This document shows positions 54,056 through 57,635 of a stretch of DNA of 64,000 bases, in pieces. Origin of the DNA: Halichondria panicea (Eukaryota > Porifera > Demospongiae > Suberitida > Halichondriidae). Both the position numbers and the translations under genes were made by a program. The stretch spans positions 17,340,518 to 17,404,517 of the forward strand of contig NC_087377.1 in assembly GCF_963675165.1 (NCBI RefSeq), given 5' to 3'. Numbering within the stretch: position 1 is the stretch's first letter; each line of letters opens with the position of its first letter. The notes beneath the pieces are model-generated. The model was not told the DNA's origin. It was given only the letters and a program-made list of their open reading frames with translations, and did not search any database.

Positions 54056-54116
54056 CTAGTTGGGCGTGGCCCGACCGTCTCCTTGACGGGAGGACGGTCG
54101 AGCCACGCCCAACTAG
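54056..54116. other. Imperfect hairpin between USF and the SHFL-ZU5-Death gene
   Basis: CTAGTTGGGCGTGGC at the left is the inverse of GCCACGCCCAACTAG at the right, and the stem continues through GACCGTC/GACGGTC. The stem contains GGGCGTGG, a GT-box-like motif frequent in this window. It may be a fold-back mobile element or a regulatory palindrome in the shared upstream region of two divergent genes. Confidence 0.8.
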
Positions 54117-54531: not shown

Positions 54532-57500
54532 ATGGCAACACATCAAGAGGTAAATAATAAAATTAATATAATTATGACACAATGAATGTCTTGTCTTAAT
54601 CTTGCTGTTGATACAGGGATTTTTCATCAAACGTCTGGAGTTGAGTGAAAAATACCAATTTGAAAGTAATCGGATCCTTTACAATGTGCAGAGCGATAGG
54701 AGGGTATACACGATGTAGAATCGATATTCAAATTATGCGTACTGGTGTTCGTTTCGAAGTAATCGGTTCCTGGAGTGGCGTCAAGAAAGCACTGGAAAAC
54801 ATACAGCAAAATTTCTGCCGAGTAAGGAGTATAGCTAGCTATTATTGTATAATTATACGTACATGCAGGCAACAATTACTGGAGACAAAGATGCCAAAGC
54901 TCACAGCTCAAGAAAAGTATTGCGATCTATGAAAAAGGAAGACCAGAACAAAATCCTTGAAGGTGGTGTTGACCCTGGACAACCTCTCTTAACAGAGGCT
55001 GTTCTCAGACAGCACAACTTGCTTCATGAGGTATATGAACTTCGAGAGTTTGCTTGTCTCCGTTGTAGGCAGTATTGGTGGAGAAAAGTCCTCACCACAA
55101 AGCGTGTATCTATGTGCAAAGGGTGTGGTGTAAAATACGATGCCCTCCGTCGAGACAAAGAGTTTGGTATCGGTCGCTATATGTGTCAGAATAAAAATTG
55201 TAATCGCACATTTTATCGATTCTGTCATGCTACCTTGGCCTGTAAATGTAAGGAATGCTATGAGATGGTTCATCATCCACATGTTCATCCCAGGTTTCGT
55301 ACTTTGCTTAAGATACGCAAACCCTTAGATCCTGATACTACACTGTATGACCCATATGAAGGAGAAGCTGTTCAGAAAAAATCAGGTGGAGAAGGTTTTG
55401 AGCCGTATGAACGTAAAAAAAAGAGGAAGTATATTTTTAACCCAAGTACTCGACATCAGTCAACAGGATCGACTGAAATGACATTCCTAACGCAAGCAAT
55501 TCGTTCGGATATAGGTGATGACAACAACTCAGAAATTATATCAATTGCCAGCAGTACTGATTCATTCTCAAGCAGTGACAATGGAAGCGACTCTGACTCC
55601 ACACCTAATCAATCTGATGATGACTCTCAAATAGAAAGTTCAGTATCAACAATACCACCTTCAGATTCAGACAACGATAGTGAATGTGATATGAGCTCCA
55701 GTCATCCAAATCAAAAACGTGAATTGGGAACATATTCCTCTGATGATTCCTCTGAGAATGATGACAATGATGACAAAACGCCCTCTGAAACTGAGTCAGC
55801 CGATTCTGGGAAGTTTTCTTCTCTAGCATCTACCATCAAGGACTCTGGTATCGGTACTGCTAGTAACATTGACACAGTTAGCACTGCTGACAGTGCAAAC
55901 AATACTGCTGACAGTGCAAATACTACTGCTGCTACTGTTCACACAACTTCTCATGGTATTTTTACAATTGATGCGTAATTTTTACAATTGATGTGTAATT
56001 AAAATTAATTATGTGTATTTATCATAATCGTTTATCATTCCAGGTTGGAAGCGTTCCTCAACGATTAAGCCTGATTACCTTCCAGTTAAGTTCTCACGGA
56101 GGGAATTTCGAGAAAATGTCGACCATCATGGAGCTGATATCATCGGTGAAGGAATTCATGTCATCATTCCTCCTAACGCAATCCGTCATGGTAATATTTC
56201 TGTGACTGTTCAAGCATGTCTAGGGGGTCCGTTCGAAATTCCCTCTGATTATGAGCCCATCAGCCCTGTCTACCTGCTCCACCCACCGTATGTATTTCAA
56301 ACCGAGGTTGAACTTAAGATTAAGGTCTTTGCTGATATCGAGGAGAACGATGACATCATATTTCTCACAAGCCAAGATAAGCCTACTGTTCGGAAAAAGC
56401 AAAACATATGGATTTTCATGGAAGAAGCTAAGGATGTGTCTGCTAAAGTTCAACCATTTTCTGCTGGAAGTCGGGAGGTCTCGGTATCAGTGCGGCACTT
56501 TTGCTTCGGACTGCTTGCAAGACGCAGAAAGAAGAGTGAGTGGATTAAAACTGTTAATTGTGCCAATCAGTACTTTTTCCTTTTATAGGGCAAAAGAGTT
56601 TGTATGTTGTCTGCCTGTACTATTTTCTGGTGCCTTCTTGCCGTGCCATCTTTACAGCTTCGTTGGACAGTGATGTGTACATAAATGTAAGAAACCTTCA
56701 TATTATGTGTTTGTCTAAATTCCTTGTACTCATTATCATTACTTTTTAGGAGTTTGAAGAATATCTGAAAAGAGATTACAAAGATAATCAACGTTATGGC
56801 ACGCCACGTCATACTCGTCTGTCTGCGGACAAAATTGAGCTTGTGTTACCCAAAAGCACTGAAGTACAGATCATACTCGATTCTTCTCCTTGCATTGTAA
56901 TAAGCTGCTACTCTCTATAACTTGTGGTTGTTTATAGTTATATTATTCTGCAGATCAAGAAAGAGTTTTTAGACCTGCCAAAGAGGAAGAAACGTGGTAC
57001 CTCATCACTGTATCCTCCATGGTTCTCTATGTCCATCCACGGGACCTCAGAACAGCATCAGGTGTGCACATTTGGAGTGAAGGGAACAGAAGAAGAAATC
57101 GAGTTCAATGTTGAAGTTCCCCCCTCCAGACCCCCCTCTTTGTCCACACACTCATCCCGGAGTGAAGCTAGTGATTGTAAGTGAAGGCATTCATTAATTG
57201 CATGTATTTACTGTTGTATGTAGGTCCTACGTATGTGTCTATCGTTGACCATGTTGGTGTTTCTGAGTCACTGCTGAGTAGAAAATGCTCATCTGAACAC
57301 CTCAAAAAAATTGCTGATTTTGTTCCAAATTGGAAAGAGTTGGCGATGAGTTTGGGAGTTCAAAAAGGCTACATTATAGACATTAACAGCGATCGACAGC
57401 TCACTGGTCCTGTAATGAAAGCACAGAGTGTTTTGGACCAATGGCATCGCTCCAACGGGTTTATGGCATCGCACAAAATGTTAATAGAAGCTTTTATAAG

Positions 57501-57635
57501 TCAAGGTGATGCAGATCTGGCGGAGCGTGTTTGCAGAATTGCTAAAAAAGGTTGTGTGGTTCATACATGTTGTGTATCTTTTGATAATGTTATGTTATGT
57601 TTACAGAATTGGAGCCAGATATTGGGAAGTGTTAA
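54532..57635 (+). CDS. SHFL-like zinc domain - ZU5 - UPA-like - Death domain protein
   Basis: Nine exons: 54532-54549, 54617-54821, 54869-55955, 56044-56535, 56589-56686, 56750-56896, 56954-57176, 57224-57550, 57607-57635. All junctions agree in phase except inside exon 2, where an AAAAA run (54648-54652) must lose one base; with that, about 874 residues result. An in-frame ATG later in exon 2 (near 54678) would avoid the problem. Residues about 136-205 match vertebrate Shiftless (SHFL/C19orf66): FACLRC then YWWRKV, CKGC, CQNKNC and CKCKEC zinc ligands, followed further on by STGSTEMTFLTQA (human ISSGSTVATCLSQ). A 120-residue acidic Ser/Asp stretch follows. Residues about 450-600 are ZU5 (GIHVIIPPNAI, CLGGPFEIPSDYEPISP), then a UPA-like region and a Death domain (about 755-865; FVPNWKELAMSLGV). 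SHFL is an interferon-induced inhibitor of -1 frameshifting in vertebrates; ZU5-Death proteins are apoptosis/inflammation adaptors. The fused role is inference. Confidence 0.85.

Follow-up and report, generated by a model that had tools for sequence, protein, structure and literature searches.

A SHFL-like domain ahead of ZU5 and Death domains in a predicted protein of the sponge Halichondria panicea

Does a locus in the genome of the sponge Halichondria panicea encode a single protein in which a domain of the SHFL (Shiftless) family precedes a ZU5 and a Death domain, or have two neighbouring genes been joined by mistake, and what would such a protein do? The locus occupies positions 54532-57635 of a window of 64,000 nucleotides, the whole stretch of DNA that was analysed (C1:17340518-17404517 of a 131-Mb, 39-contig genome). 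Its gene is called copy A here, and B and C are paralogues in the same genome. A sequence-only reading of the window had proposed the fusion, and we regard one protein with this domain order as nearly certain. What the protein does is less secure, a relay from a sensing head to the Death domain being the function towards which the evidence modestly leans.

Copy A comprises nine exons from ATG 54532 to TAA 57635, which give a single open frame of 835 amino acids without internal stop, and its eight introns are all of GT-AG type and 47-165 nucleotides long. This phase-consistent chain fills exactly the interval for which one had been claimed, and the junction between 55955 and 56044 does, as read, rebuild a Gly codon (GGT), the equivalent codon in paralogue B being Asp. 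The features, in window positions, are as follows.

54532..54549, plus strand: exon 1, starting with ATG and encoding MATHQE; B has MATHQK at the equivalent place
54617..54703, plus strand: exon 2 in its short form, phase 0 into exon 3
54869..55955, plus strand: exon 3, SHFL-like domain and acidic Ser-rich linker; PF15135 match in the genome search at 54989-55495
55049..55258, plus strand: four Cys pairs (FACLRC, MCKGC, CQNKNC, CKCKEC) and WW of the SHFL core
55460..55474, plus strand: STGST block, the counterpart in the alignment of SSGST, with which the match to human SHFL ends
55841..55858, plus strand: linker motif DSGIGT, conserved and present in six distinct genes
56044..56535, plus strand: exon 4, ZU5 domain; Pfam match at about 56115-56375
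56493..56510, plus strand: RHFCFG closing ZU5, where PIDD has its HF/S and CARD8 and NLRP1 their SF/S autocleavage motif, with Cys replacing Ser
56589-56686, 56750-56896 and 56954-57176, plus strand: exons 5-7, where a UPA domain is expected by position only
57224..57550, plus strand: exon 8, Death domain; match at about 57295-57531
57607..57635, plus strand: exon 9, final codons and TAA

Exon 3 encodes the SHFL-like domain. The family profile PF15135 (UPF0515) matches copy A with E 7.4e-22 in a genome search and E 2.1e-22 in a Pfam scan of the protein, scoring 80.2 bits in A, 77.8 in B and 71.5 in the database protein P0006, described below, against a curated cut-off of 29.8. Among PDB sequences, human SHFL (9kbo) was the sole phmmer match at E <= 1 (E 1.1e-11, query residues 42-210 against human 88-258), and the match improved to E 9.2e-25 with a six-sequence SHFL profile. 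The sequence-only reading had named a profile search without a SHFL match as the result that would overturn its identification, and the family was recovered by both routes.

Human residue numbers were counted along the alignment of A with 9kbo, in which the four Cys pairs fall on C112/C115, C132/C135, C155/C158 and C174/C177, and WW on W119/W120; the zinc-ribbon Cys pairs, the two further pairs and the W119 W120 equivalents are all kept. The third pair is CQNKNC in A, and its second Cys is missing from the database proteins P0002-P0004. The RAA region (human residues 164-199) can be aligned in A with one gap of a single residue. Likeness to vertebrate SHFL (Shiftless, C19orf66) thus lies in the four-Cys-pair core, WW, the RAA stretch and the STGST/SSGST block, whereas the human protein, in excerpts of PMC11055011, is a stand-alone protein of 291 amino acids with an N-terminal globular domain and a C-terminal helix. 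In the window protein, an acidic linker, ZU5 and Death take the place of that C-terminal part; a human-type C-terminal helix with export signal and Glu-rich end was not found in A, where the match stops at STGST and the linker and ZU5 come next.

The PF15135 search of the whole genome (eight candidates, all scored) gave six matches over the cut-off, two short ones only in combination with frame neighbours: the window gene, B, C and three short ones. Three tandem short SHFL-like frames of 139-156 amino acids lie at C2:8190919-8192970 on the minus strand (locus L066), with 33.7, 32.6 and 32.8 bits against 29.8. No ZU5 or Death domain stands beside them among the matches listed, and the one frame compared with PDB sequences had no match at E <= 1.

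The ZU5 and Death domains claimed for the later exons were also recovered. PF00791 (ZU5) exceeds its cut-off of 21 bits in B (21.7) and P0006 (23.5). A ten-sequence ZU5 profile, which includes the window exon as a member and so speaks for the family more than for that exon alone, matched ZO-1 (E 3.6e-14), ankyrin-1 (1.1e-11) and UNC5B (9e-6) among PDB sequences. PF00531 (Death) scores 26.7 bits in exon 8 alone against a cut-off of 22.6 (E 6e-6), and 28.1 bits in the frame of C. Outside A and B, the closest Death domain (46%) is that of a gene on C14 with a frame that is ZU5-like by eye.

That these domains form one protein is argued both by the locus itself and by its relatives. The first Met of the ZU5 exon is residue 125, past the Pfam ZU5 match (24-110) and before HFC (151), and this exon therefore needs another exon upstream of it. 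The relatives are alike up to HTTSHG and then differ (IFTIDA, NFL, NCL), as is expected at a donor site. Paralogue B (L064, C2:7129007-7125776, minus strand) has nine exons in the same phases as A and 855 intact codons. Paralogue C (L065, C2, frames between 8293107 and 8290054, minus strand) carries SHFL, ZU5 and Death in the same order, its intron phases not having been checked one by one. The protein P0006 (497 amino acids, from a 2507-bp contig, source ENA) holds PF15135 (E 9.8e-20) and ZU5 (E 6.7e-5) in one frame; it is divergent, with 34% identity to the query over 41% of that query and 42 of 83 SHFL core residues as in A, and is absent from the six SHFL matches of this assembly. Between its linker and ZU5 lies a hydrophobic stretch, apparently a short intron that is in frame and was read through. 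Since order and phases recur in B, order in C, and SHFL with ZU5 in P0006, the fusion is more than chance. Two further records correspond to exon 3: P0001 is exactly that of B, and P0007 agrees with that of the window at 366 of 371 residues, from which the window gene is present in other records too. P0001 had no match in viral and prokaryote contig collections, from which records near the window's own genome were possibly left out. Upstream of B, at about C2:7129734-7131894 on the minus strand, retroelement-like integrase frames were seen by eye.

The N-terminus of copy A is ambiguous. Relative to B, its exon 2 has a 4-nucleotide insertion within 54660-54690, which shifts a long exon 2 of the B type (to 54821) out of the reading frame of exon 1. 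The short exon 2, with its donor after 54703, preserves the frame from exon 1 and gives 835 amino acids; the long form can be used from ATG 54684, with an open frame of 846. The protein thus begins either at ATG 54532 with the short exon or at ATG 54684 with the long one, exons 3-9 being identical under either start, and the insertion is apparently bypassed by one of these routes. A programmed +1 frameshift in exon 2 was considered, as B reads straight through, and was dropped as unneeded, since the short exon preserves the frame. An exon 6 donor at 56863 was replaced by 56896, which has parallels in B and, by eye, in C. Between exon 1 and a minus-strand neighbour lies a mobile-element-like inverted repeat with exact 15-base arms (54056-54070 and 54102-54116).

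A and B share 74.2% identity over 821 codons, with a nonsynonymous distance (dN) of 0.153, a synonymous distance (dS) of 0.374 and a dN/dS of 0.41 (Nei-Gojobori), and the gene is under purifying selection. By part, the ratio is 0.45 in the N-terminus, 0.22 in the SHFL core, 0.41 from SHFL to STGST, 0.46 in the linker, 0.42 in ZU5, 0.49 in exons 5-7 and 0.41 in Death. Between C and either A or B (SHFL core, ZU5 and Death), dN is 0.32-0.67 and dS is 1.4-1.9 or undefined; synonymous sites being saturated or giving no defined value, an old origin of the fusion is probable.

What the head might contribute can be gauged from the vertebrate protein. According to excerpts of PMC11055011, SHFL binds the translating ribosome and the frameshift element, mutating the zinc-ribbon Cys of the human protein abolishes its self-interaction and its binding to ribosomes and to RNA, and W119/W120 are suggested by the authors to matter for self-interaction and ribosome binding. 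In mouse, SHFL with a mutated finger lost its antiviral activity and its co-localisation with viral dsRNA (PMC10433982, in excerpt), and a further proposal is that SHFL halts ribosomes that have shifted frame, as an early event in ribosome quality control (PMC10747187, likewise). Because of this ribosome role and the fusion to ZU5 and Death, a sensor head on a death-fold adaptor is the simplest reading, and a sensor-to-Death relay is the function that we somewhat favour. The window protein would then be a cytosolic sensor-adaptor, whose N-terminal SHFL module would self-associate and bind either viral RNA or ribosomes disturbed by frameshifting or stalling. A long acidic, probably phosphorylated linker would connect it to a module resembling that of UNC5 and PIDD, ZU5-(UPA-like)-Death, kept inactive until the head is engaged or removed, and the Death domain would then recruit other Death-domain proteins, leading to caspases or inflammatory signalling. 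We infer ligand, phosphorylation, autoinhibition and output alike.

Several known systems share parts of this architecture. In humans, a relay runs from the ribosome through ZAK and p38 to NLRP1. NLRP1 and CARD8 (FIIND, that is ZU5-UPA, then CARD) likewise place a ZU5-type module before a death-fold domain, whereas the window protein itself holds the ribosome-linked domain and ends in Death rather than CARD. Both UNC5, a receptor, and the ankyrins, with their ankyrin repeats, resemble the window protein in a ZU5 followed by a C-terminal Death domain and differ in having no SHFL. PIDD1 (leucine-rich repeats (LRR), ZU5, UPA, Death) shares a head domain, a ZU5 ending in HF and a possible nucleophile, and a C-terminal Death domain, and differs in that the window protein has SHFL in place of LRR and HFC in place of HFS; no LRR family was found at E <= 0.1 in A or B. 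The sequence-only reading had compared the protein with PIDD, UNC5 and Tube-like adaptors: the first two hold well, the third is loose, Tube not being known to have a ZU5, and ankyrins and NLRP1/CARD8 are also better parallels. Human NLRP1 is a ZU5-UPA protein (PMC3210808, PMC7794386) and is activated by ribotoxic stress (PMC9623368), all three sources being cited from excerpts.

Several results pull the other way, on the composite protein or on its proposed role. P0006 ends before any Death domain, and a search with the full-length protein found no relative at E <= 0.001 among 7999 candidates scored. ZU5 in the window exon alone falls just under its cut-off (20.3 against 21 bits), and in the whole copy A protein reaches 16.1; Death, likewise, is under 22.6 bits in the whole proteins (21.7 in A, 17.8 in B). 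Against PDB sequences, the Death exon gave a best E of 0.052, which is not significant, and a two-sequence A/B profile from ZU5 to Death gave no ZU5 and nothing significant. UPA is not confirmed, a Pfam scan of exons 5-7 of A and B having no match at E <= 5. No clear counterpart of the human N-terminal globular domain (residues 1-103) was recognised, the Pfam match to the 271-position profile beginning at 88 in A and at 68 in B. Decay has affected copy C, and exon 2 of A is disturbed. Finally, the human SHFL Cys mutant still restricts HIV-1 infectivity (PMC11055011, in excerpt), and SHFL therefore does more than bind ribosomes.

How the Death half might be released is addressed by a first alternative, a functional degradation like that of CARD8 and NLRP1. 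The ZU5 domain would cleave itself at HF/C with the halves staying associated, and a phosphorylated DSGIGT would mark the SHFL-linker-ZU5 half for removal, freeing the UPA-like/Death half to oligomerise. The linker motif, which resembles a beta-TrCP phosphodegron in shape, occurs as DSGI[GS]T in eight of the ten sequences examined (A, B, C, P0001, P0002, P0003, P0006 and P0007; six distinct genes, P0001 being B and P0007 nearly A). The remaining two end before the linker (P0004) or within the motif (P0005, at ...GDSG). Shuffling the A linker 5000 times gave DSGI[GS]T in 5 cases, and the alignment score of the P0006 linker was matched by 3 of 1000 shuffles against A and by none of 1000 against B. 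A, B and P0006 share HFC at this point of the alignment, and C has it too; none of the four carries an HF/S or SF/S cleavage motif, and Cys may be the nucleophile. Excerpts of PMC3210808 give HF/S as the autocleavage motif of PIDD and SF/S as that of CARD8/NLRP1, with attack by Ser, Thr or Cys as the first step, and functional degradation is described as the working mode of NLRP1 and CARD8 (PMC7794386, in excerpt). Set against this, ten of the 27 ZU5 matches in the genome, B included, end in HFC, two have HFS and 15 neither, so that HFC at the end of ZU5 may be structural. Shuffled versions of the P0006 linker contained the looser pattern DSG..[ST] in 589 cases out of 5000, and the UPA-like part that would be freed finds no support in Pfam. 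On balance, this course of events appears unlikely, if worth keeping in view.

We hold equally doubtful that the SHFL head is an effector rather than a sensor, binding ribosomes or RNA while ZU5-Death only fixes its location, at a membrane, the cytoskeleton or a scaffold in the manner of ankyrins and UNC5, with no death signalling. The nearness of the ZU5 family profile to ZO-1 and ankyrin ZU5, and the SHFL core being the most constrained part of the gene, speak for such a role, whereas the Death domain is constrained too. Less probable still is the most elaborate scheme, a ribosome-fault alarm in one protein: SHFL would catch ribosomes that have collided or shifted frame on viral mRNA, the linker with its DSGIGT would be phosphorylated and degraded, and a Cys-driven acyl shift at HF/C of ZU5 would free the Death half, leading to death.

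A decaying family with no present function is improbable. In copy C, the SHFL frame is broken at LLTEATLAKHDLL and a TAG interrupts the ZU5 exon at 8291467, and A has the insertion in exon 2, whereas B is intact, A is open under either start, and the A/B ratio indicates constraint; a pseudogene was accepted for C and rejected for A and B. Very remote is an artefact joining two neighbours, a SHFL gene ending at the in-frame TAA 55976-55978, to which the exon 3 frame continues beyond the donor (HGIFTIDA*), and a ZU5-Death gene: exon 3 is stored in databases as a stand-alone predicted protein (P0001, P0002, P0003, P0007), but a ZU5 exon without an early Met, the shared sequence up to HTTSHG and the fusion found elsewhere led to its rejection.

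For the favoured sensor-to-Death relay, the genome offers possible partners in its Death and caspase-family proteins, with at least 148 Death matches (a lower bound, 150 of 503 candidates having been scored) and 33 caspase-family matches, besides the 27 for ZU5, all counts being of matches rather than genes. Other ZU5 genes appear, partly by eye, to carry other heads (LRR-like, signal/transmembrane-like or unannotated), six of nine frames having been scanned with Pfam (L008, L009, L017, L018, L022 and L030). By eye, L007 and L008 start in a signal/transmembrane-like manner, and L017, L018, L022 and L029 have a helical-looking N-terminus. L030 (C17:5477671-5477847, minus strand) is an LRR-like and ZU5 gene resembling PIDD1, with TDSGYES before and THFS after ZU5; its best LRR match, LRR_4 (E 1.8e-5, 25.3 bits), is under its cut-off of 27. 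The SHFL head could be read as one swapped sensor among several. The ZU5 matches ending in HFC are L007, L008, L015, L016, L017, L018, L022, L027, L029 and L033. Five ZU5 matches lie on C9:4321925-4351215 and one on C10:5297404-5300680, most with HFC, and three of the five on C9, as well as the one on C10, are followed on their own strand by a Death match some 3-4 kb downstream.

No description joining SHFL with a sponge, or with a ZU5 or Death-domain fusion, was found among the titles and abstract openings listed by searches of the open-licence PMC literature. Judged by its sequence, the window protein is a predicted ZU5...Death adaptor with a new head; further new features are the DSGI[GS]T motif of the linker and an HFC standing where PIDD has HF/S. 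SHFL has so far been studied as a vertebrate interferon-induced factor, and SHFL-ZU5-Death in a sponge would suggest that its defensive role predates interferon. By 'Rosetta stone' logic, the fusion would link SHFL to death-fold signalling, and as a natural fusion it would make ribosome surveillance and a death output testable in one molecule. If the ribosome-fault alarm were true, an early branch of the animals would have coupled the surveillance of translation straight to the death fold.

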